A stretch of 64,000 bases of DNA from Anaerovibrio sp. JC8. Its GTDB lineage: Bacteria; Bacillota; Negativicutes; Selenomonadales; Selenomonadaceae. Position 1 is the stretch's first letter. Each line of letters opens with the position of its first letter. Shown piece after piece: positions 6,808 through 62,018 of the stretch. The notes under the pieces were generated by a model. That model had not been told where the DNA came from, ran no database searches, and was given only the letters and a program-made list of their open reading frames with translations. The DNA is taken from the NCBI RefSeq assembly GCF_002100115.1, contig NZ_ANBM01000002.1, positions 62,001 to 126,000 on the forward strand. Reading direction: 5' to 3'. The position numbers and the translations under genes were made by a program.

Positions 6808-7866
6808 TTATTGTATATTTTTCATCTCCTGCAACATTTCATCCGTCAAGTCCAGAGTATTGATGCCAATAACCGGTGACCTAAGTTCATGCCATGTCAC
6901 AAACCCCAGGCGGTCAAACTCCAGGCCCAGAATATTATCTACAGGATCTGTAATTATCAAATTTAGATGATGAACCATGGCCAGCTTGGCAGCCCGACTG
7001 GAAATATCCTCAAAAATTTTCTTTTCCAGCAGGTCAATTTCCCTCAGCTTCAGCTCCAAAGTCGTCTTTTTCCTGGCAAGATCCATTTTAAGCTGGATAG
7101 GCTTCATGGCTTCATCAATAGCCTGGGCATTTCGCCCCTGCACCTCTGCAAAATGCTGCATTGCATCGGTCTGGGCCTGCCCCCTTATGCTGTTTTCCTC
7201 AGCCAGCATATTGCGCCGGGCTTCCCCAGTTGCGGCCTCCACCGCAACCTCGTAGCGGTGTTGCTGATCCTTCAGCAACTGATTATGGCGTTCATTCCGC
7301 TCATCCTTCAGACGATTCCACTCAGCCTGCAGGCTGGCCCGTTCCGCCTCACTTAGTTCCAAGGTAGCTGCATTATCCGCCTTTATTTGAATATTTAAAA
7401 TACGATTTTCATACTCCCGGTCAATGGCAGCCCGTTCCTGGTCAAACTGGGATTTCATGCGGTCATAAATGGCATCAGCCTGAGCCTTCAGCTCATCCAT
7501 CGTTTCTGAATGGCTGGTTATAATCTCCAAATTGGCTTTTTGCTTGGCCGCATCCTCAAACAGCTTTTTATCAGCCGTAACAGCCTGAGCGGTTAATTCA
7601 AAGCTCTTCAGCTTTAATTCTGCCTCCATGGACGCAGCCTCCCGCAGCAATGTCTGAAGCTGGCCATAATCCTTGTGAACCCTGATAACCTGTGCCATAT
7701 CCATAATCCCGATTTCCGGCTCCTGGATTGCGGTTGGGGTATTCTGACGGTTAAACAGAAAAAAAAGCGCTAAAACAAGTATAGTAATAGCCGCTGCACC
7801 CATCCATATCCGCCTGTTTCTTAAGCTGTTATTCCTGTCTGTATCCTGTTGCGCCTTAACAGCCAT
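6808..7866 (-). CDS. membrane-anchored coiled-coil protein with OmpH-like features
   Basis: No assigned function. The 352-residue protein has an N-terminal cytoplasmic stretch, one transmembrane segment (about 22-39) and the strand IGIMDMAQVIRVHKDYGQL, which resembles the opening of OmpH. A very long predicted coiled coil (about 75-300) follows. The end, IITDPVDNILGLEFDRLGF with a final DLTDEMLQEMKNIQ, mirrors the OmpH close ('DLTDDV..L'). It sits between two clear ompH genes. I read it as an enlarged, inner-membrane-anchored Skp relative; an adaptor spanning the periplasm is an alternative. Confidence 0.75.
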   Translation of the reverse strand: MAVKAQQDTDRNNSLRNRRIWMGAAAITILVLALFFLFNRQNTPTAIQEPEIGIMDMAQVIRVHKDYGQLQTLLREAASMEAELKLKSFELTAQAVTADKKLFEDAAKQKANLEIITSHSETMDELKAQADAIYDRMKSQFDQERAAIDREYENRILNIQIKADNAATLELSEAERASLQAEWNRLKDERNERHNQLLKDQQHRYEVAVEAATGEARRNMLAEENSIRGQAQTDAMQHFAEVQGRNAQAIDEAMKPIQLKMDLARKKTTLELKLREIDLLEKKIFEDISSRAAKLAMVHHLNLIITDPVDNILGLEFDRLGFVTWHELRSPVIGINTLDLTDEMLQEMKNIQ

Positions 7867-8525: not shown

Positions 8526-9881
8526 TTAAAAATATCCTATAAAACGAAGCCATTTATCATCATTATCCATGACTGCCTCCACCGACAGGAAATCATGTAG
8601 CTTATACCTTACGGCAAACTCATTGATACTATCCTGACCACGGTATTCATACAGGAGAGACCAGCGTTTGTGGAAATTGTATTCCAACCCAGCCTTCCAG
8701 TAGCTGTCACTAAGGGAATAACGGACATTGCCACGAATTTTCGGCACCAGCTCCCGATAAACTCCCAGATCGAAATTCCAGCGGGTATCCTTTGGATAGA
8801 AATCTATCAAAGTAAATATACCATCGCGGGCTGACAGCTGCTTACCAAAGAGCCCCCGGAACATAATTTCACCATCCTGATTGCGGCTCTTGTGCCCCAA
8901 CTCCCCCCGGCCCTCAAAACGGACCAGTACCGTGCTGGAATCTGACCGGCTCATTACCTCCATGCGCTCCGCCGGAGTAATTGTCACTTTGGTATGAACA
9001 CCCCAGAACTTGGCTTCCTCCAAATCATCAATGCGATGGGACAACAAATCCTGTATGGTGTCCTGATGGCGCTTCACAAAAGCCACTGGTACTCCCACGA
9101 ACATATCCGCACCATCCTGCATGGTCTGGCGCTCCATTAACAGGGCCGCATTGGGTAACGTATCAGAACGCATACAGAGATCAATGGTTCGGACCACTGG
9201 AAGCAGAGGATAAATATCAACTGTAACTTTGGTGCTTTCGCCAACCTCCACATCAAAGTCCGCCCGAAATTCCGGTGCCCGTTCCTGCATAAAAGCCCTT
9301 ACGCGATGCTTCATGACTCCGTTGGTCCAATCCACCGCCGCCACCGGCAGCTCCTGCAGCATCTCCTTGAAAAGCTGGTCTATGCCGGCAATATCATCCA
9401 ACAGTAGCTTTTCCACCACCGCTGGCATGCCTATCACCTGTGTTTCCACGGTGATGGACTCTATCCTGTCGTTCCAGCCCAGCAACTCAACAAATATTTG
9501 CAGATTATCCCCTGGTGCAATTGTCACTGACTTAACAGTATAACCAACCAGCACCTTGTCAAATACCTGCTGTATAATACCTTCATAATAGCTCCTACGT
9601 GATGCTACTTCATCGATATTCTTGCCCTCCAGCAGCTGATTCCCAATGGCTTGGACACTCTTTTCCATCCTCTGGCATACATCCACGGGAATATGACCAT
9701 CACCCAAAACAGAAGCCCTAACGTCTTCCACCTGTCCATGAACTTTGGAAGAAATCACAGCCTCAGCACTGGCAATATCAGTAGAAGAAAAACTGATACC
9801 GGCCACGGAAACCATGGCCAGCATCAAAAAAATTGCACATCTCTTTATTAAGTTAGCTTTACAAAACTCCAGCCACTCCAT
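8526..9881 (-). CDS. exported outer-membrane beta-barrel protein of unknown function, coupled to bamA
   Basis: A 451-residue protein with a signal peptide (cleavage near residue 40) and a soluble N-terminal part of about 290 residues containing several alternating strands such as VRTIDLCMRSDTLP. A C-terminal stretch of amphipathic strands ends in LRFIGYF. The aromatic last residue and strand pattern fit an outer-membrane barrel. The start codon overlaps the bamA stop as TAATG, implying translational coupling. I do not recognise a named family. A TamA-like or BamA partner role is suggested only by position. Confidence 0.75.
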   Translation of the reverse strand: MEWLEFCKANLIKRCAIFLMLAMVSVAGISFSSTDIASAEAVISSKVHGQVEDVRASVLGDGHIPVDVCQRMEKSVQAIGNQLLEGKNIDEVASRRSYYEGIIQQVFDKVLVGYTVKSVTIAPGDNLQIFVELLGWNDRIESITVETQVIGMPAVVEKLLLDDIAGIDQLFKEMLQELPVAAVDWTNGVMKHRVRAFMQERAPEFRADFDVEVGESTKVTVDIYPLLPVVRTIDLCMRSDTLPNAALLMERQTMQDGADMFVGVPVAFVKRHQDTIQDLLSHRIDDLEEAKFWGVHTKVTITPAERMEVMSRSDSSTVLVRFEGRGELGHKSRNQDGEIMFRGLFGKQLSARDGIFTLIDFYPKDTRWNFDLGVYRELVPKIRGNVRYSLSDSYWKAGLEYNFHKRWSLLYEYRGQDSINEFAVRYKLHDFLSVEAVMDNDDKWLRFIGYF

Positions 9882-11860
9882 TAGAAGGATGCACCAACAT
9901 TAAAGTGTACCCTATTGCCCTGGGAACCATGACCAACATCTATACGGATTGGTCCCACCGGTGTATCCACCATGACTCCAAAGCCCACGGAAGCATGGAA
10001 GTCTTTTGGTACCCAACCAGAATTCCAGGCAGCACCCCAGTCAGTAAACAGGGCTCCCTTTATCTTATTTGCCAATGGGAAGCGGAATTCCAGGCTGCCA
10101 ACATACATGCTGTTGCCCCGGAACTGGTCATCACGATAACCACGGAGAGTTCCCTGACCACCGATTCTGAACTTATTGAAATAGCTTAAGTCACTGGTGG
10201 AATGACCATAACAATTACGCAGGGCTACAATCTGATTTCGGCCCACCTTCCGATATACGGAATCATCAATGGTATACTTCTGATACTTAAAGTCACCACC
10301 CAAGCCGGCAAACTCCGCTGCTAAAATTACATTATGACCATCTGTTGGATACATAATGTTATCACGGGTATCGGTTGTATGGGACAATGTAATGGACCTG
10401 GTCAGTCCAAAGTTTTTGCTGTTCCAATCAGCCCATCCTGGCTTACTGCGATCAATCGGTCCGGATTTATGAGCATCATAGGTATCATCACTGTTTTTAA
10501 AATAAATACTATTGGAAGAATACTCACTTACCGGACGGCTAAAGCCAAATTCAAAGCCCTTGGCTCTACGCAACATTTCCTCCAGCAGATCTCCATTTTC
10601 ATTATAATCGTTATATCTATATGTACGATTATAAATCTTGATTACTCCAGCCGTTTCCTTTTTATCCAGCCACGGTTTGCGATAGGAGAATGTCCAGCCC
10701 CGGGCATCGGTACTGGAACCACTCATGGCATAGCTAAGGCCAATAGAATCTCCAACGCCACGGAAATTGGTATCACCTACGCTGATCATACCAATGATAC
10801 CATCGGCTGTACTGTAGCCGGCACCTACACCAAAGGTGCCGGTATTCTTCTCTGTTAAATCAATCTCCAGCAGGCAGGCATTAGGCTCTACACCAGGAAT
10901 CGGCTTAATATCAATGGATTCAAAATAATTCAGTTTTGACAAGCGCTGATAGCTGCGGACTACATCCTTTTTGTTAAGGGGTTCTCCTACCTTGGTACGA
11001 AGCTCACGGACAACCACCTTTTCCTTGGTTTTCTTCAGGCCCTTGACCCTGTAGCCCTCCAAAATTCCTTCATTAACCTGAATGGAAATCTTGCCATACT
11101 CATCAATACCCATATCATGGACCTTGGCCATAATATAACCGTCATTGGTGTAGACCTTCTTGATATTGGCCAGATCCTCCTGCAGGGAAACACGGTTAAG
11201 GCGATCACCAGGCTTTAACTGCATGGCATTAATCAGCTTGTCCGTGGATTCACGGCTACTGTTGCCGGTAATCTCAATATCAGAAATAATTGGGGTCGTA
11301 AACACGTGGTAAGTAACGATTACTCCCTCAGGAATTTCCTCAAAGCTTGGATAAAGGTCGTAGAAATATCCAGTTTCATAAATATTGTTGGCATCCTTGG
11401 ACAGTCCATCAATAGTCAGCGTATCCCCCACCTTGGAGTAAAGGGACAGCTTGGCAGTATTGTACACATCCTCTGTGGCCCCCTCAACCTTAATATCCAT
11501 AATGGTCTTGCCCACCAGAGCCTGGGCTGCTGTTGTAACCTCTGCATCAGTAGGTCTTTCCCCATTCCATTTCGCAGCTGCCTCCTTGGCTGCTGCAGCT
11601 GTGTCCGGAGTATTGGTAACATTTTCTGCTGCACCGGCCCTGTCCTCATTAGTGGCACCAGTCTGCTTATCCCTGATATCTGCCATGGCACCGTTCTCCG
11701 CAACGGCTGCCATTTTGCCATCCTTCATATTGAATACTACAGCGGAATCAACCGGCTCCTCGGCAGAAACCACCTGGGCTGCAGAAAGGCTTGTTGTCAT
11801 TGCCACGGCAAAAGCCAAAGCCTTAATATTTCTTTTGGAATTCTTTGAAGTAAATCTCAA
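9881..11860 (-). CDS. bamA: outer membrane assembly factor BamA (Omp85 family)
   Basis: Core of the machinery that inserts barrel proteins into the outer membrane. The 659-residue protein has a signal peptide ending near VVSAEE, an Ala-rich linker (about 35-115) and three visible POTRA repeats (starting near IMDIKVEGA, ISDIEITGNSS and YRVKGLKK). The 16-strand barrel domain includes the conserved loop motif LRGYRDDQFRG and a C-terminal phenylalanine (GASF). Five POTRAs are usual in Proteobacteria, so this is a short form. The start is TTG at 11860 with AGGAGG eight bases upstream. Confidence 0.95.
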   Translation of the reverse strand: MRFTSKNSKRNIKALAFAVAMTTSLSAAQVVSAEEPVDSAVVFNMKDGKMAAVAENGAMADIRDKQTGATNEDRAGAAENVTNTPDTAAAAKEAAAKWNGERPTDAEVTTAAQALVGKTIMDIKVEGATEDVYNTAKLSLYSKVGDTLTIDGLSKDANNIYETGYFYDLYPSFEEIPEGVIVTYHVFTTPIISDIEITGNSSRESTDKLINAMQLKPGDRLNRVSLQEDLANIKKVYTNDGYIMAKVHDMGIDEYGKISIQVNEGILEGYRVKGLKKTKEKVVVRELRTKVGEPLNKKDVVRSYQRLSKLNYFESIDIKPIPGVEPNACLLEIDLTEKNTGTFGVGAGYSTADGIIGMISVGDTNFRGVGDSIGLSYAMSGSSTDARGWTFSYRKPWLDKKETAGVIKIYNRTYRYNDYNENGDLLEEMLRRAKGFEFGFSRPVSEYSSNSIYFKNSDDTYDAHKSGPIDRSKPGWADWNSKNFGLTRSITLSHTTDTRDNIMYPTDGHNVILAAEFAGLGGDFKYQKYTIDDSVYRKVGRNQIVALRNCYGHSTSDLSYFNKFRIGGQGTLRGYRDDQFRGNSMYVGSLEFRFPLANKIKGALFTDWGAAWNSGWVPKDFHASVGFGVMVDTPVGPIRIDVGHGSQGNRVHFNVGASF

Positions 11861-11908: not shown

Positions 11909-12472
11909 TTATTCCCTTAATGTCTTGCCCGCAGCCTGCATCAGCTGCTGCATCTCAGCATCAGGCACCTCACCCGGCGGCTTGTAAGCTTCTCTGGCAG
12001 GTTGCTGTACCCTTTGTACATTCTCAACTGCCGGAATCTCCTGCCGCACGAAGCCTGATTCAGTACTGTCTGCACTCTTTGGTGCAACAGATTCATGTGC
12101 CTCCAAGGATGGTGGTACCTCCACCATCTGGGCTTTCTCCAAACCTTTAGAGGAAGTATCCTGCTCATTCACTTTAGGTACATTGGCGGGAACCTCTGCC
12201 GGCCTGCTGCTATGAAGAAACGCCAAATAGCCTATTCCGACCAGCACCGCAACAACAAGTGGTGCCAGCCGCAGCAGCCATTTCCGCCATCCATGGCCAA
12301 ACTTGGTTTCCTGGGCCCGCTGAAGCTCAGCCTGAGCCAGCATGACATCCAGGTCCCCCCGCAGATTGTTTTCCTTGTCCATGGAGCTTTCAGCCCTGCC
12401 CAGCCAATCCCTGGCTGCCGATATATGTTTTTTTATTGCCTTATTGTCCTTTATTTTGCGTTCTTTATCCAT
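11909..12472 (-). CDS. single-pass membrane protein next to the sigma factor (candidate anti-sigma)
   Basis: Unrecognised 187-residue protein. The N-terminal 65 residues are highly charged and helical and would be cytoplasmic, because WRKW precedes the single transmembrane segment (about 66-87). The remaining 100 residues are extracytoplasmic, low in order and rich in P, E and V. ATG at 12472 follows GTGGAGG closely and is preferred over an in-frame TTG at 12490. This topology beside a sigma factor gene is what a membrane anti-sigma would have. No anti-sigma motif can be recognised, so the role is inference only. Confidence 0.65.
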   Translation of the reverse strand: MDKERKIKDNKAIKKHISAARDWLGRAESSMDKENNLRGDLDVMLAQAELQRAQETKFGHGWRKWLLRLAPLVVAVLVGIGYLAFLHSSRPAEVPANVPKVNEQDTSSKGLEKAQMVEVPPSLEAHESVAPKSADSTESGFVRQEIPAVENVQRVQQPAREAYKPPGEVPDAEMQQLMQAAGKTLRE

Positions 12473-12608
12473 AAAAGCCTCCACAAGCAAACGCTCCCAT
12501 GGAATATAATCACAAGCTTAATCCTAAACACAAAACATGAAATTAAGGTGAAAAACGGCGAATTTGGGCAAAATCTCCCAATATGTCCGTTTCCCTGCCT
12601 TATACCAC

Positions 12609-13241
12609 CTACTTCCAGTTATGCATAAAACGGGACAACATCCCCCGAATCCGGCGGACTCCGCTTTTTTGCAGGCGATATATGTGGGCAGTGCTGACAT
12701 TTAGCATATCAGCCACATCCTTTATCTCCTGACTGTTTACAAGAACCTGATTTAATACCAGCTGCTCCTTATGGGGAAGCCGGTCTATGGCCTCCATAAC
12801 CATGTCGGATGCCACCCGGATTTCCGCCAGCTCCGGTATGGGAGTCCCCATATCCGCCAACATATCCAATCTGGACAATCCGGATTCCATTTCCGCTTCC
12901 AGACAGGCAATATCTGCATTGCCCTCTTCCTTTAAATAGCGGTACATACGGCCCCTTATGCGATAGACGCCATAAAGGCTGAAGGCCACACCCCTATCAG
13001 GATCAAAGCTCTCTACAGCCTCAATAAGCCCAACTGTTCCCTCCTGGATGACATCCATAATGTTATCCATATCCTTAAATGGCATGGCTGTCTTAAACAC
13101 CAGTGGCTGATAAGCCTCAATGATGTAGCGGCGGGCCTCAGCACTGTGATGATGCTTAAAATCATACCACAGCTCCCGTTCCCTCTCTGGTTCTAGCACC
13201 TGCACCTTATTAAGTTCCTGCATGTACTCAGACAGCTTCAT
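12609..13241 (-). CDS. sigma-70 family RNA polymerase sigma factor
   Basis: Alternative sigma factor of 210 residues. Region 2 is clear: YIIEAYQPLVFKTA, then DVIQEGTVGLIEAVESFD and the -10 recognition part FSLYGVYRIRGRMYRYL. A shortened linker follows, and region 4 has a helix-turn-helix around IKDVADMLNVSTAHIYRLQ. It lacks region 1. Size and region 2 resemble SigD/FliA or SigF types more than ECF factors. It is 13 bases downstream of tamB and upstream of bamA, so it is co-transcribed with envelope genes. Its regulon is unknown. Confidence 0.88.
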   Translation of the reverse strand: MKLSEYMQELNKVQVLEPERERELWYDFKHHHSAEARRYIIEAYQPLVFKTAMPFKDMDNIMDVIQEGTVGLIEAVESFDPDRGVAFSLYGVYRIRGRMYRYLKEEGNADIACLEAEMESGLSRLDMLADMGTPIPELAEIRVASDMVMEAIDRLPHKEQLVLNQVLVNSQEIKDVADMLNVSTAHIYRLQKSGVRRIRGMLSRFMHNWK

Positions 13242-13254
13242 AACATACCTTCTT

Positions 13255-16200
13255 TTAGCGGGTTATTCTTGCGTAGCCCATATCATCATAAATGAATTTT
13301 TCCTCCACCACGTCATTTCCTGGAGAAGCCGTGGAAAATCTAAACCGTGCCCCTATACCAAAAATATTGGCATTATCCTCATCACGATAATATATAAGCT
13401 CCGTATTATCTGTCAGCTCATATTCAATTCCTGCCCTATAATCGTTGGTGTTAACACTCTTGGTATAGGTCAGCAAAAATCTGTCAGATATATATTTACC
13501 CAATTTGATATTATACACTTCCGCATAATTTTTGTCGCCTGTTTTTTTATTAAGATATTCCGAGGTATCCCGTTCTATGGAGAACAGGTCCAGTGCAAGG
13601 GCATTACGAAGGGCTGTTTCCACCTCGGAAAGAACCGTCATTTGCAGTCCCACATTGAACATAGCTGCAAATTTGGCTGAATCACTCATATTTGCATTGA
13701 AATCACTTCTAAGTGTCAGAAGCTGAATGATATTCTGCTCCGACATAGGCGGTGATGACATCAGCTTAAATCTCATGTGCTCTACCGGCCCCTCAAGACT
13801 TACATACACATGGGTACTTGCCACCTTGGTACCTGCCTTCAACGTAATTGAAGGATAAAGGCTGTCATTTCTATTGAAGTTTATAGCCCCCTCATACACC
13901 ATGAAATTGGTTTTCAGATAGTTGACAGTACCCTTCTTCACAGTAATGGCCCCACTGGTGTGGGGGGCAAGGGTTGTACCCTTAAAATGAGCCTCCCCTA
14001 CAAGCAACAGATTCCCCAGATTTGCACTGACAAAACGGACTCCCTTGCCCAGCTCCACATCAAAATCCAGCCCCACCTCCGGCATTTCCGTACTATCAGT
14101 AGGAATTGGCGGTGTGGAAATAACATCATTTTCCAGGAACAAGCGTCCCGATAATTTAGGAATTGTTCCATCAGGTGTCTCCAGGCTGTCAAGATTAATA
14201 GTTGTGGTCAGTGGCCCCCTGAAGAAATCACATTTCACATCCAATTTATCAGCATCAAAACCAAGATGATAGCTTACAGGTGTCAGGCCATCAACTTCTG
14301 CATAGCCTGTCAGTTTATATGTGCCCTCACCCATCCTGCCGGTGCAGTTCTCCAGCATAAAAGTGCTACCCAACATGGAAAGACGCAGCCCCACATCGGT
14401 TACTGGCTTGGTCACGCCCTTTATCTTATATGCACCGTCAGATACCACGATATTCCCCTCAAAGGATGGATGATTTGCAGTACCGGTTATATTGACTGTA
14501 CCATCTGTAGGTCCCACTGCCCACTCAATATATTTTGACAAGGTTGGCAATAGGCTGAGATCCGCATCCTCCAGGGATACCTTTAGATTCATCTGCTCAT
14601 TGCTATCAGAAGCATCAGACCGGAAAGCCCCCAAGGGTGCATAACCGCTCACCACAACTCTGTTGGCATTATTCCCCACCATTTTCTTGGCAATAAAAGG
14701 CTCAGTAATATGAACAGTCTTGTCCTGAAGCTTGAATTTTCCAGAAATACTATCCAGGGCAGCCCCCTGAACTCCAAGGTTTTCACCAGTCAAAGTAATT
14801 TCCGCCATAGGGTTGACAGTTTCTCCTGCAGCCTCTACATGGCAGTTAACCTTACCAGTAATATCACCAACATATCCGGCAGCTCCGGCCAGCGCCCCCG
14901 CATCAATATTTGAAGCATCTGCCGTCAAGGACAGTTCTCCATCCAAATCCACAGTACCCATGACAGTGAATCTACCGTGTTCTCCCTCTGTGCCTGTAAG
15001 ACTCTTTATGGTAATAACCCTATTATCAAGGGTTGCGCTGCAATAAACATCATTGATTGGATATTTGCCAAAACGGCCATCCGTAACATAGGCGCCAAAT
15101 ACCAGACTCGGATTCTGGACAGTACCCGCAATATTACAGTTGCCGTTAAGCCGTCCGGTAATATTGTTATTCTCCCAGCCAGCAACGACCCCCAAAGACT
15201 TGATATCTACATTTTCCAAAGTAATGCTGCCACCAATAGCCTCTGTTGCAGAATTATATCTGGCATTAAGGGTATACTTGCCCTCTCCCTGCTTTACGTA
15301 CATATTTTTGAAGAAAATACGGTGGTTGCGGTAATCAATGTCTCCCGCCACCTCATCGAATTCCTCACCACGAACAACAATACCCTTGGAAGCCACAGTG
15401 CCGTGGAAGATTGGTGCCTCCACATTTCCCGTCAGGGTACCTGTAAAGTCGATATAGCCATCCAAAGGAATAGGTGACCGCTTATCAAAATCATCCAAAT
15501 TTATATCTTTGGCTTCCACCGTAATATTCATGTCTCCTTTGGAGGTTATGGTACCGTTGCCAATATAGGCCCGAATTCCAGGAGAAAGGATATGTATGTC
15601 CTTTAGTGTCAGTAAATTATTTTCATAGGAATAATTACCAGTAATGCTCTGAATGACAATTTCGTCGTTAAACTTACCCAAACGGTAAGTAAAATGACCA
15701 TTCACCAGTGGATTATCCAAGGTGCCGGTTATTTCTATTTCATTATCCACGCTTCCTGTAAGAGGCAAATCCACATCTACGGCCTTCAACATATTTTCCA
15801 TGCGGGCATTTTTAGTGGAAATGTTCAGTTTTACCTTCCTTTCTCCCATAAAGCCCACAATACCATCTACTTCCCAGCGGTTGCCATTGTCACCTTCAAT
15901 AACAAAATCCTTCACCCCCACACCCCGCAGGCCGCCGATGGCCTTGCCGTGAAGTCTTTTAAATGGCTGGCTGAACAATAAACCATCACGGGCCGCAAAA
16001 GAGGCACCTATTACCGGATTATCCAAAGTACCCTTCAGCTTGCCCCGGAAGTCCCAAAAACCGGTAATATCATCCGCTTCCGGTTCAATATCCTGCAACA
16101 GGGACAAATCAACCTCGGCACCATAGAAGCTTATGTCCAACTCCTCACCCAAAAGAATGTCTCCCTGAAGCCCCACTTCACCACCACGGGCCAACATGAC

Positions 16201-17673
16201 ACTGAGATAATCCACATGAAGGCTGCGGTTTTGATAAATCAGAGAACCATCCAGACGGGAGGCGCCAACCCCCATATAGCTGGCTCCGTTAGAGCTGACA
16301 GTAGACGTTACCTTTGTATTGGTCAAATCATTGACATTACCCGTCAACAGAGCATCAGCAGATACAACCCCTCCGGCCTCTGCCAAAGCCGGAATATGGG
16401 CTGCTGCCTGACTGAGGTTGATTCCCTCCGCCTTAACCTTGGCCGCAAAATCAAAGCTTTTGGCATCAAAATCGCCCTCGGCAGCTATATGCCCACCGAA
16501 GATGTCACCATTGAGCCCGGTAACCGTAACAGCCTGCTCAGCATACCTTACCCTGGCAGTGCAATTGGTAAAATCATAGCCGCTGACACTGCCCCGGTCA
16601 ATTTTCACATCAGCATCCACCACTGGATTGGTGGCATCCCCCATAACTCTGGCATTGAAGGCCACCGGACCACTATAAGGAATATCATCTGTAAGAACTC
16701 CCGGTTCAAAACCGTCGGAGGTCACCGTCAAATCAAGAATTGGCCGTCCCTCTACCAGCTTCACCTTTCCCTTGGCTGCAGCTCTCTGTCCACTGGTTTC
16801 AGCACTCATAAACACCTGAACGTCCTTCTCCGTAAAGGAGAAGAGTCCCTTTATATTTTCTACCTTTTTATCGAGGATAATAGCCTCACCGTTCTGCAGC
16901 TCCAGCTCGCCGCTGTAATAAAGCTCCGATCCTGTCCTTTCTCCAGCTGCCACAACCCTGGTTACCCTGCCCCGAATACTGCCGGCCTGCAATATATCCT
17001 CAGGAATAGTACCTCCCGGAACATAAGGAATATAATTGGCCAGCTCCAGGTCGTAAATTTCCACATTAAAGGTATCCTTAAGACCACCATAGCTGGCAGC
17101 CACCTTTACCTCGGCTCCCTGGTGTTTGGCGGTTCCCTCTATACGCACTGCCGGATAATTGTCAAAATCCAGCTCGGCCTGCAGATCCTCCACCAGAATA
17201 TCCTGACCATTATAGACTGTTCTCAGCGTACCACCAACAATGTGTACCATGCCGGTAAACTTGTTATCGGAAGGCTCTTCAGAAACAAGATCTGAAAAAT
17301 TCCAGGAGCCGTCGCTGCGCTGATGGATATCTGCCTCTACATCTGTAAGATACACATCCCTGATTCCCTCAGAAACAGAATTTTTAAACATACTAAAGTA
17401 GCTGAAGCCCACCCTAGCATCAGCGACCCTGGCAATAATCTTATCCTGCTTATCGTAAACAGCAATGTCCTTTATATCCACAGAGTTAAAGGATTCCACC
17501 TTCACCAGGCCGATTTCGACTTTGGTATCCAGCACCTCACCGGCAATGGAAGCTGCGTTTTCCGCTGCTTTCGCCATAAAGACAGAAGATGAAATATAAC
17601 CGTAAATGCAGGCCATTACTATAAAGACCACGGCCAGAAGGCCAAGGCCCTTCCCCATTACCTTACGGTCCAT
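13255..17673 (-). CDS. tamB: translocation and assembly module protein TamB (DUF490)
   Basis: Giant AsmA-like protein of 1472 residues that bridges inner and outer membranes; the family is implicated in phospholipid flow to the outer membrane. It has an N-terminal transmembrane anchor (about 8-28). The long periplasmic region of repeating beta strands has recurring 'GTLDNPxxxG' type units (for example GTLDNPVIGASF, GTLDNPLVNGHF). The C-terminal TamB domain includes SLEGPVEHMRFKLMSSPPMS followed by IIQLLTLRSDF. The start is ATG at 17673, with AGGGGG six bases upstream; the open frame extends ten codons further without a ribosome site. Confidence 0.93.
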   Translation of the reverse strand: MDRKVMGKGLGLLAVVFIVMACIYGYISSSVFMAKAAENAASIAGEVLDTKVEIGLVKVESFNSVDIKDIAVYDKQDKIIARVADARVGFSYFSMFKNSVSEGIRDVYLTDVEADIHQRSDGSWNFSDLVSEEPSDNKFTGMVHIVGGTLRTVYNGQDILVEDLQAELDFDNYPAVRIEGTAKHQGAEVKVAASYGGLKDTFNVEIYDLELANYIPYVPGGTIPEDILQAGSIRGRVTRVVAAGERTGSELYYSGELELQNGEAIILDKKVENIKGLFSFTEKDVQVFMSAETSGQRAAAKGKVKLVEGRPILDLTVTSDGFEPGVLTDDIPYSGPVAFNARVMGDATNPVVDADVKIDRGSVSGYDFTNCTARVRYAEQAVTVTGLNGDIFGGHIAAEGDFDAKSFDFAAKVKAEGINLSQAAAHIPALAEAGGVVSADALLTGNVNDLTNTKVTSTVSSNGASYMGVGASRLDGSLIYQNRSLHVDYLSVMLARGGEVGLQGDILLGEELDISFYGAEVDLSLLQDIEPEADDITGFWDFRGKLKGTLDNPVIGASFAARDGLLFSQPFKRLHGKAIGGLRGVGVKDFVIEGDNGNRWEVDGIVGFMGERKVKLNISTKNARMENMLKAVDVDLPLTGSVDNEIEITGTLDNPLVNGHFTYRLGKFNDEIVIQSITGNYSYENNLLTLKDIHILSPGIRAYIGNGTITSKGDMNITVEAKDINLDDFDKRSPIPLDGYIDFTGTLTGNVEAPIFHGTVASKGIVVRGEEFDEVAGDIDYRNHRIFFKNMYVKQGEGKYTLNARYNSATEAIGGSITLENVDIKSLGVVAGWENNNITGRLNGNCNIAGTVQNPSLVFGAYVTDGRFGKYPINDVYCSATLDNRVITIKSLTGTEGEHGRFTVMGTVDLDGELSLTADASNIDAGALAGAAGYVGDITGKVNCHVEAAGETVNPMAEITLTGENLGVQGAALDSISGKFKLQDKTVHITEPFIAKKMVGNNANRVVVSGYAPLGAFRSDASDSNEQMNLKVSLEDADLSLLPTLSKYIEWAVGPTDGTVNITGTANHPSFEGNIVVSDGAYKIKGVTKPVTDVGLRLSMLGSTFMLENCTGRMGEGTYKLTGYAEVDGLTPVSYHLGFDADKLDVKCDFFRGPLTTTINLDSLETPDGTIPKLSGRLFLENDVISTPPIPTDSTEMPEVGLDFDVELGKGVRFVSANLGNLLLVGEAHFKGTTLAPHTSGAITVKKGTVNYLKTNFMVYEGAINFNRNDSLYPSITLKAGTKVASTHVYVSLEGPVEHMRFKLMSSPPMSEQNIIQLLTLRSDFNANMSDSAKFAAMFNVGLQMTVLSEVETALRNALALDLFSIERDTSEYLNKKTGDKNYAEVYNIKLGKYISDRFLLTYTKSVNTNDYRAGIEYELTDNTELIYYRDEDNANIFGIGARFRFSTASPGNDVVEEKFIYDDMGYARITR

Positions 17674-17694
17674 CCAACATCCCCCTAAAAAGAA

Positions 17695-17720
17695 AACTGC
17701 CACGCAATAACGCGGCAGTT
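17695..17720 (-). terminator. terminator after tolC
   Basis: A ten-base-pair stem with one mismatch and a six-base loop is followed on the minus strand by TTTTCTTTTT. It sits in the 113-base gap between tolC and tamB and may separate mla-tolC from tamB, or work as an attenuator. Confidence 0.82.
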
Positions 17721-22123: not shown

Positions 22124-24178
22124 TCAGTTTTTCTCCTTTTTTTCCACGATTTTTAAAGTTGTATGTATTACATTCTCTATAACGTAGTCTGTAGGGGTGC
22201 TCTGTACTGCCTCTACCGGCTTTCCATTGTCTGCCGCGGCCTTTTTGCCCTTTTCTGCCAGCTTCTTGGAGAGCTTGATGGCCTCCTTGACAGCAGCCTT
22301 CTGCTGTTCATCAGTCAAGATAGGTGCCGCTGCCGGCTCCACCACAATATCATTGTTTTTGGCAGTCTTCAGCATTTCCTTGATTTTGGTCTCGGTCTTA
22401 ACATTCTGGTCCTCCTCCAGGGATTCATCACCAGCCTGCTGAGCCAACAAAAGCTTGGCCACATTTATAAGGCCGCCACCATGAAGGTCAAGATTCAGTG
22501 TCCCCGGAAGCTGGGTCTTTGGAATAGTATAAGGAACATCCACTGTTATCTTTTCCTGACGATAAGGCTTCAGGGTAGTCTTAAAGGTTACAGTATCACC
22601 GGCACATGCCTCTGTCTTATCAGGGGTAGCTGACAAAATAGAAGCCGTCATGCGCTGTTCACCAATGAATACATTCACCTTGACATCATAGATGTTAGCC
22701 TCCCGCTCTTTGTTGTTGCATATGGTGTTCATTATCTCATTAAGCTCGGCCACCGCCTGCTTGCCCACGTCATTGGCGTTGTAGAACATGTTGGTACGCT
22801 CAATTTTCCCATTTTCTCCCATATCGGTACGAATGGTAAAATTCACCTTGGCCGTACCATTCATGCCCCGGTCTATCGTCCTGTACATGGAATCATAAAC
22901 CATGGCCGTTGTCAAAAGAGGTACCACTTCCTCATCATAAGCCACCAGAGAGTGATAGGTCTGGGAATTGGAAAGATCAATGTCATTAACGGAAAGAATC
23001 ACTGGTATATTCTGGGGATATTCCCCCAGGATGCCGGCCACACCATCAATGCGGTCCTGATTAACCCGGCCAATTATGGAGGTCATATGACCGATTTTCA
23101 TACCATCCAACGGGCCATGGGCCGTTGAAAAAACATCCGCACCAGTCATAAAGTAATTTACATTGCCCCGGTTGGTATGGCCATGTCCAAAGGCCAGTAC
23201 CCTTCTGCCATCCACGGCTGTTACTGTACCCATGGCACCCATGTAGTAGTCTCCCACCACTTCTGCCACACCTACAGCTCCTCCAGGCTCCAGTGATGCG
23301 TTGTAATCAATGGTAGCCGGACCTGCATTGGAATTCCAGTTGGCCACATCCCGCAGCTTTATGCCGGGAATCTTGTCCGAAAGGAAGTCCACACCCTTAT
23401 CCGTAAAGCCGGAAACCATTTTCCAGGCCTTTTCCTTGTCCTGAATATCGTTTTTCTCAGGAGCCTCCACCTTCTCCTCAGGCTCTGACTCCTTCTTTTT
23501 ATTTTCCAGCTCCTCCTTGGTCACATAATCCTTATCGGCTATGCTGTCCTCAGATGCTTTTTCACCGCTGACATTTTCCTTTGTTGCTGCGTCCTTGCTG
23601 TCAGCCTCTTCCTTGGTTGTTTTATCGTTCTCATCCTTGGTTGCTTTTTCTTCCTTGGCCTTGGCTTCTTCCTCTGCTTTCTTGGCTGCCTCCTCACGGA
23701 TTTTCTTCAAATCCACCTGTGGCAGCTCCGACTTATTCTTTGTATCCGGCAGCTCCCATAATTTAAGCATATATTCAATTGGAGTTACCATAACCCGCTT
23801 ATCAAGATACACATTGCTGAAGGAAGCAGAGGCGGCTCCGATAAGCTTGCCATCCACATAAATGGGAGAACCGCTCATACCGGAAACAATACCACCTGTG
23901 GTTTTGATCATATCTCCGGACAAATCCACCAGAATCCGCGGTGAGGCCAGCTTGCTGCTGCTGCCATTTACACCAACTACTGACACATCAAAGGAACGGA
24001 TTTCCCCGCTCTGATCGATGATGGTATACCCCTTGCCAGTCATGCCCGGTGTCACCTCAGTGAGAGGCATAATCTCCGGCATGGCAAAGCAGACGGAGCT
24101 TACAGACACGCTAAGGGCAATGCAAGTAGCTAATGTATTTCTTTTCAATCTATGTAAAAATCTGTTTATTTTAATCAC
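22124..24178 (-). CDS. exported SpoIVB-type (S55) serine peptidase domain protein
   Basis: A 684-residue protein with a signal peptide (cleavage near VCFAMPE). The block TTGGIVSGMSGSPIYVDGKL holds the S55 serine near residue 102-104. A highly charged insert rich in K and E follows (about 155-250). A second block, VLAFGHGHTNRGNVNYF, holds the candidate catalytic histidine (about 332). In SpoIVB the histidine block comes before the serine block, so the order here is permuted. It lacks a visible PDZ domain. The start is uncertain: GTG at 24178 overlaps its own ribosome-site-like GAGGTG. Substrate unknown. Confidence 0.78.
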   Translation of the reverse strand: MIKINRFLHRLKRNTLATCIALSVSVSSVCFAMPEIMPLTEVTPGMTGKGYTIIDQSGEIRSFDVSVVGVNGSSSKLASPRILVDLSGDMIKTTGGIVSGMSGSPIYVDGKLIGAASASFSNVYLDKRVMVTPIEYMLKLWELPDTKNKSELPQVDLKKIREEAAKKAEEEAKAKEEKATKDENDKTTKEEADSKDAATKENVSGEKASEDSIADKDYVTKEELENKKKESEPEEKVEAPEKNDIQDKEKAWKMVSGFTDKGVDFLSDKIPGIKLRDVANWNSNAGPATIDYNASLEPGGAVGVAEVVGDYYMGAMGTVTAVDGRRVLAFGHGHTNRGNVNYFMTGADVFSTAHGPLDGMKIGHMTSIIGRVNQDRIDGVAGILGEYPQNIPVILSVNDIDLSNSQTYHSLVAYDEEVVPLLTTAMVYDSMYRTIDRGMNGTAKVNFTIRTDMGENGKIERTNMFYNANDVGKQAVAELNEIMNTICNNKEREANIYDVKVNVFIGEQRMTASILSATPDKTEACAGDTVTFKTTLKPYRQEKITVDVPYTIPKTQLPGTLNLDLHGGGLINVAKLLLAQQAGDESLEEDQNVKTETKIKEMLKTAKNNDIVVEPAAAPILTDEQQKAAVKEAIKLSKKLAEKGKKAAADNGKPVEAVQSTPTDYVIENVIHTTLKIVEKKEKN

Positions 24179-61966: not shown

Positions 61967-62018
61967 AAAAGCTATCGTTATGAAATCTTATTGAAGACAT
62001 CATTAAACGATAGCTTTT
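61967..62018. terminator. second copy of the nrdD terminator
   Basis: A 13-base-pair stem (AAAAGCTATCGTT arms) is followed by TTTTTTCTTGC on the minus strand. It is homologous to 58906-58956 but with a different loop. It now probably ends the fucosyltransferase transcript. Confidence 0.85.

Follow-up and report, generated by a model that had tools for sequence, protein, structure and literature searches.

A sigma factor and a membrane protein, its candidate anti-sigma factor, are encoded as a unit between tamB and bamA in diderm Bacillota

The sigma factor RpoE of Proteobacteria and its membrane-bound partner RseA are functionally linked to BamA, Skp and Lpx genes. In Anaerovibrio sp. JC8 (Negativicutes), a gene for a sigma factor and a gene for a membrane protein lie next to each other among genes for outer-membrane biogenesis, which raises the question of whether diderm Bacillota possess an envelope-stress circuit of their own, as an original prediction from this DNA had proposed. 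We examined the question computationally, starting from the window, the whole stretch of 64,000 nucleotides (positions 62,001 to 126,000 of contig NZ_ANBM01000002.1) in which the two genes are found, and extending the analysis to genomes of the class and of the phylum.

The genes of the cluster are read from the minus strand in the order SpoIVB-type S55 protein, MlaE, ABC ATPase, MlaD, OEP/TolC-type protein, TamB, sigma factor, membrane protein and BamA, followed by a 451-aa protein, an OmpH/Skp protein, a third protein, a second OmpH/Skp protein and LpxD. The proposed placement of the pair inside an outer-membrane biogenesis cluster was confirmed by the Pfam matches of the genes on either side (Table 1). 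Only 13 nt separate the end of tamB from the start of the sigma gene; the gap between the sigma gene and the membrane-protein gene is 136 nt and that between the membrane-protein gene and bamA 48 nt. The 451-aa protein downstream of bamA matched no Pfam family above cut-off. A 352-aa protein encoded between two OmpH/Skp genes (6808-7866, minus strand) has no Pfam family and appears coiled-coil-like by eye, and the upstream end of the same-strand outer-membrane run as examined is occupied by a SpoIVB S55 peptidase-domain protein of 684 aa (22124-24178, minus strand), in a place where a sporulation role would be unexpected.

Table 1. Features of the tamB-bamA region, with coordinates as positions in the window.
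Feature	Position	Strand	Remarks
tamB	13255..17703	-	directly upstream of sigma gene; Pfam TamB E 1.7e-43
sigma-70 family factor, 210 aa	12609..13241	-	region 2 and region 4, short linker, no region 3
promoter-like GATTATA, instance of GANTNTA	12505..12511	-	39 nt before membrane-protein ATG
single-pass membrane protein (candidate anti-sigma factor), 187 aa	11909..12472	-	ATG at 12472
conserved cytoplasmic N-domain, residues about 11-56	12305..12442	-	predicted helical hairpin
transmembrane helix, residues about 68-86	12215..12271	-	hydropathy and charge flanks, 84 homologues; limits by eye
conserved C-terminal periplasmic motif, residues 171-187	11912..11962	-	homologue alignment
bamA	9881..11860	-	directly downstream of membrane protein; Pfam Omp85 E 1e-38, and POTRA

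The 210-residue product had been correctly described as a sigma-70 protein. Pfam identified Sigma70_r2 (E 8.9e-14) and Sigma70_r4 (E 1.6e-6), both above cut-off, and gave no match to Sigma70_r3, a domain make-up like that of ECF sigma factors. The protein scored 80.2 bits against NCBIfam TIGR02937 (cut-off 42.9) and reached no named equivalog cut-off among the best 25 of 65 NCBIfam families. The AlphaFold model of a homologue with 78% identity contains the sigma2 and sigma4 helices.

The open reading frame listed for the membrane protein (12490-11909) begins with TTG. We prefer the ATG further downstream, since GGAGG lies just upstream of it and near relatives use the same start. Searches of Pfam and NCBIfam placed the protein in no family, searches of the PDB returned no convincing relative, and none of the three revealed homology to known anti-sigma factors; near-matches to calnexin and FliL were dismissed as products of the composition of linker and transmembrane segment. 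All 84 non-redundant homologues have a single hydrophobic stretch, with none further above KD 1.6. The 15 residues that precede this helix carry a mean net charge of +3.2 and the 15 that follow it one of -0.5, and the side before the helix is the more positive in 79 of the 84, which argues for a topology with the N terminus inside. Ten N-domain columns (A20, W23, L24, A27, E28, L41, L45, A46, A48 and E49) are invariant among 26 sequences, as are L185 and R186 at the extreme C terminus. In between, beyond the membrane helix, runs a variable tether, composed largely of Pro, Ala and Glu, of about 60-140 residues (69-136 across the 84 homologues); judged by length, the longer tethers could cross a periplasm. 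The original prediction of a charged cytoplasmic half and one membrane helix stood, while its description of the outer half as merely disordered did not, since the tether ends in a conserved helix-like motif, commonly Q-x-L-[MVI]-x-x-A-G-x-x-L-R, a looser pattern of which was matched by 83 of the 84 homologues.

If the membrane protein is the partner of the sigma factor, the two should be conserved together, and absence of the first where the second is present had been named as grounds for abandoning the idea. Among 300 Negativicutes genomes, searched for the sigma factor at E 1e-15 and with a membrane-protein profile at E 0.01, the sigma factor was found in 233 and the profile in 241, and every one of the 233 sigma-positive genomes had both. 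Eight genomes gave a membrane-protein match without the sigma factor. Six of these matches were rejected as they covered only profile positions 43-162, the transmembrane and low-complexity part, in open reading frames without the N-domain motif; two of the six (G022 and G125) are presumably RNase Y. The remaining two matches (G050 and G228) are genuine, and their loci are truncated by the ends of contigs in drafts of about 75% completeness. Neither gene was present in 65 of the 300 genomes. In the smaller set made up of this genome and 40 relatives, a sigma ortholog of at least 170 bits occurred in 38 of 41, being absent from G022, G032 and G038.

The adjacency counts, which cover part of the 233 sigma-positive genomes, showed the membrane protein directly downstream of the sigma factor in all 30 first loci (26 + 4), and in 105 of 106 further listed pairs both genes shared a contig and a strand, their matches 42-605 nt apart; the exception is the draft of G297, in which the genes are split between two contigs. 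Of 105 partly redundant loci, window included, 104 had tamB on the upstream side and 100 had bamA on the downstream side. In four of the five loci without bamA (L008, L043, L017 and L018) the stretch ends at, or within 0.75 kb past, the membrane protein. In L025 the pair has relocated together and is flanked by an amidase gene and a GerMN-like gene upstream and by a wecA-like gene downstream (names assigned by eye).

The two genes also disappear together. BamA was found in each of 15 Negativicutes genomes examined that are without the pair, and TamB was directly upstream of bamA in 13 of them (phmmer E 1.2e-82 to 5.5e-94 at best, 5.5e-28 at worst), bamA having other neighbours in L120 and L122. 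In the accessible part of a published account of Veillonella parvula, TamB and BamA carry the consecutive locus tags Vpar_0526 and Vpar_0527 (PMC5491611), so that the pair is probably absent from this species too. Invariable co-occurrence in sigma-positive genomes, joint loss and the joint move in L025 support the conclusion that the sigma factor and the membrane protein form a unit.

To place this unit in the phylum, 299 genomes drawn from it were searched with the membrane-protein profile at E 1e-6. The protein was present in 19, eight of them Negativicutes and 11 from other classes (E 6e-18 to 7e-10), and in 10 of the 11 other-class loci the order tamB, sigma factor, membrane protein, bamA was found (tamB E 1e-15 or better, bamA E 1e-31 or better). 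Conservation across Negativicutes, as proposed, was therefore observed, and the proposed scope was too narrow, since classes of the phylum other than Negativicutes carry the unit as well. A C-terminal amphipathic helix was seen by eye in nine of the 11 other-class homologues, six of the 11 conforming to the strict pattern; by eye it was absent from L171 and L172. The eleventh locus, L179 (G459), has the membrane protein directly before bamA and the sigma factor about 3 kb upstream with other open reading frames between, tamB being outside the fetched stretch. This locus is a natural test of whether adjacency of the sigma factor and its partner matters.

The membrane protein was confined to genomes with Omp85, which was found in 76 of the 299: 19 of the 76 Omp85-positive genomes carried it compared to none of 223 Omp85-negative ones (Fisher p 7.6e-13), and outside Negativicutes the figures were 11 of 66 and 0 of 223 (p 4.4e-8), neither p value being corrected for relatedness. 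What is new here is the order tamB, sigma factor, membrane protein, bamA beyond Negativicutes, and only in Omp85 genomes. The profile found no membrane protein in the other 55 of the 66 Omp85-positive genomes outside Negativicutes, and the protein is thus dispensable for outer-membrane biogenesis as such. All 55 were fetched. We located bamA in 54, with TamB recognised upstream in 36, and no sigma factor or membrane protein was seen upstream of bamA in any of the 54, three of which (L241, L242 and L258) have under 1 kb of upstream sequence.

Carriers were scattered over a BamA tree (FastTree, 82 rows, midpoint root; the partial sequences L170, L258 and L264 dropped, L263 without bamA), on which the pair label requires at least 10 changes. 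The unit was probably ancestral in diderm Bacillota and then repeatedly and jointly lost. This is the simplest reading because nearly all carriers have the same insertion site; repeated transfer of the whole block is a possible alternative.

Do the two proteins touch? Both genes are in frame with a short gap at 22 loci, so that read-through gives a paired chain. We ran AlphaFold2 on the Anaerovibrio chain (L038, 100 rows) and on the sigma factor alone with the same 61 sigma sequences. The fusion reached pLDDT 75.8 and pTM 0.54 over 314 residues and the sigma factor alone pTM 0.51 over 210, where a free-floating hairpin would be expected to give a pTM of about 0.34 (0.51 x 210/314, a rough estimate of our own in which the length term is ignored). 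In the fusion model the N-domain is a two-helix hairpin (248-281 and 285-306), with pLDDT of 57, 82, 83, 81, 86 and 64 in successive ten-residue blocks from 251 to 310. Fusion raised the pLDDT of the sigma factor in residues 1-10 (62 to 79), 11-20 (76 to 87), 51-60 (81 to 89), 91-100 (88 to 93), 101-110 (68 to 80) and 111-120 (44 to 51) and lowered it by 5-6 in 141-150 and 191-210. These pTM and pLDDT values, from one fusion and the sigma factor alone, hint that the hairpin may dock on sigma region 2. Covariation was computed over 84 pairs (Neff 48) with 60 within-cluster permutations. The mean of the top 20 inter-protein MI values was 0.289, compared to a permuted mean of 0.242 and maximum of 0.267, and the top single pair (0.402) was below the permuted maximum (0.414), a signal that is weak overall. 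Modelling and covariation weakly suggest a contact between hairpin and sigma factor. A Foldseek search with the fusion model was uninformative on the complex, the 50 matches listed being ordinary sigma factors.

The partner has the architecture of a membrane anti-sigma factor, and this is its most likely function. On the reading that we favor, and consider probable, an alternative sigma factor is kept in check by this protein: the cytoplasmic helical hairpin would bind sigma region 2 and hold the sigma factor at the inner membrane, the tether would extend into or across the periplasm and display the conserved C-terminal helix, and this helix would sense a component of the outer membrane or of envelope assembly. 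Once that contact is lost or altered, the sigma factor would be freed, probably through subsequent proteolysis. We infer the inhibition, the signal, the proteolytic release and the target genes of such a circuit. A Peptidase_M50 gene is present in this genome, which says little on an RseP-like release because all 14 of 14 control genomes have one as well. Inherited and lost as a unit, the pair looks, for that reason, like an old, unstudied envelope-sensing switch. More tentatively, and as a version that could well prove wrong, the ancestor of diderm Bacillota may have had a switch without sequence relationship to RpoE/RseA inserted between tamB and bamA, with a partner that spans the periplasm on a disordered tether and a C-terminal helix that directly reads BAM/TAM, and its descendants may have repeatedly lost this switch and kept the outer membrane.

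The same observations can be read in other ways. The membrane protein could be an activator or membrane scaffold, a co-sigma factor whose hairpin delivers the sigma factor to RNA polymerase or to local promoters. This account would explain linkage, joint loss and the predicted contact just as well, but the known single-pass membrane partners encoded beside sigma genes are mostly inhibitors, and we regard a co-sigma factor as unlikely. It is likewise improbable that the membrane protein is a BAM/TAM accessory, with a C-terminal helix that binds BamA, TamB or Skp and with the sigma factor as an unrelated operon-mate: its position between tamB and bamA at nearly every locus, its restriction to Omp85 genomes in the phylum sample and its conserved periplasmic C terminus would suit such a role, but ten of its 12 invariant residues (26 sequences) are in the cytoplasmic part, the sigma factor occurs alone in none of the 300 Negativicutes genomes, the two real cases of a partner alone are at contig ends, and in L025 the partner has left tamB and bamA together with the sigma factor.

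That the sigma factor is of the FliA/WhiG flagellar or developmental kind and sits in the outer-membrane cluster by chance is very hard to believe: WhiG and FliA are among its best NCBIfam and PDB relatives (closest PDB sequences of FliA and WhiG types, then SigA and RpoS), but both models stay below their curated cut-offs (WhiG 78.8 vs 343, FliA_WhiG 68.1 vs 189.6), this genome (G000) encodes a separate sigma relative in a 253-aa open reading frame on contig C4, about 9 kb away from flhA, the placement between tamB and bamA is kept across classes, and FlhA is missing from 96 of the 233 sigma-positive genomes and present in 28 of the 67 sigma-negative ones. FlhA occurs in 165 of the 300 genomes (137 with the sigma factor), neither is found in 39, and the association is mild (odds ratio 2.0, p 0.018). 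A flagellar role for the sigma factor was rejected on this distribution, which speaks against the purely flagellar regulon that had been set down as another way for the original prediction to fail.

How does a candidate membrane anti-sigma factor of this kind compare to known systems? The pair resembles RpoE/RseA in that a single-pass membrane partner with a cytoplasmic N terminus is encoded directly after the sigma gene, and in the link to BamA, Skp and Lpx genes. It differs in the position of its genes inside tamB-bamA, in a long low-complexity tether with its own C-terminal motif and in the lack of RseA_N homology: the RseA N-terminal domain PF03872 had no match in the window protein and none in 150 Negativicutes, the E. 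coli control being positive. ZAS anti-sigma factors of ECF sigma factors share the operon with a two-domain sigma factor and often a membrane helix; their HxxxCxxC zinc motif, in contrast, was found in none of the 84 homologues. FlgM is similar as a small helical partner of a sigma factor with a related region 2, FliA, but FlgM is soluble and exported, whereas the partner described here is membrane-bound and shows no flagellar linkage by distribution. In WhiG/RsiG of Actinobacteria, according to the accessible portion of the source, an antiparallel helical anti-sigma factor contacts sigma2 and sigma4 and is armed by c-di-GMP, with E(X)3S(X)2R(X)3Q(X)3D motifs on its coiled-coil helices (PMC8325347). 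A sigma factor of the FliA/WhiG-like group and a helical partner are common to both, but the RsiG motif occurred in 0 of 84 N-domains and the protein studied here is membrane-anchored.

The word sigma does not appear in the available portion of the main text of one paper on the outer-membrane cluster (PMC5007114), and the available portion of another mentions a sigma factor once, E. coli rpoS (PMC5491611). A search of titles and abstract starts in the open-licence literature found no paper on the pair, and none was found in the open-licence literature on sensing or regulation of the outer membrane in diderm Bacillota. The two proteins are thus apparently an unnamed family of sigma factor and membrane partner in the core outer-membrane cluster of diderm Bacillota. 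A regulator fixed between tamB and bamA in several classes would provide a handle on envelope stress outside Proteobacteria and on the control exerted over an outer membrane prior to its loss. Consisting of two genes, with an interface predicted to be short and a periplasmic motif that is short as well, the system lends itself to direct testing.

The gap between the two genes offers a view of how the partner itself may be controlled. Among 86 distinct gaps, 76 were kept after one shorter than 80 nt and nine near-duplicates had been dropped, and GANTNTA was present 18-72 nt before the start in 67 of these 76 Negativicutes gaps. The expected number was 5.7, and none of 300 Markov resamplings gave more than 13. 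A longer element with the consensus CCATAATCTGGCCTCTTCCCAGGATTATA contains GANTNTA in 18 Sporomusaceae-type sequences. GANTNTA has stayed with the relocated pair in L025 and is therefore a property of the pair, not of bamA. It resembles a promoter from which the partner gene would be transcribed, in the manner of a feedback loop, and the sigma factor may be what recognises it; reading the element as -35 and -10 boxes is our own, and Gibbs motif runs without a spacing model gave no family-wide -35. The long element is single-copy in four of four genomes. The two-box pattern CCAWAA-N15-17-GAYTRTA occurred 51 times in seven genomes, native element included, compared to 42 times for the reversed pattern, and therefore no regulon emerges. 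In other classes GANTNTA was at chance, with one instance in 10 adjacent gaps (L171, 67 nt before the start), five of the 10 being too short to hold it.

An RNA hairpin was considered for the same gap. Some species have a Sporomusaceae-type inverted repeat, which by eye is broken without compensation in L101, L102 and L027; single-sequence folds disagree, and Rfam found nothing in the window, L073 or L085. As the evidence for an RNA hairpin fails, the intergenic element is read as a DNA element. At L109, L095 and L020 the gap between sigma factor and partner is short and has, by eye, a TATAAT-like sequence instead of GANTNTA. In the gap of L060, the ribosome-binding site could pair by eye with an upstream CCTCC in a strong hairpin, possibly a form of translational control.
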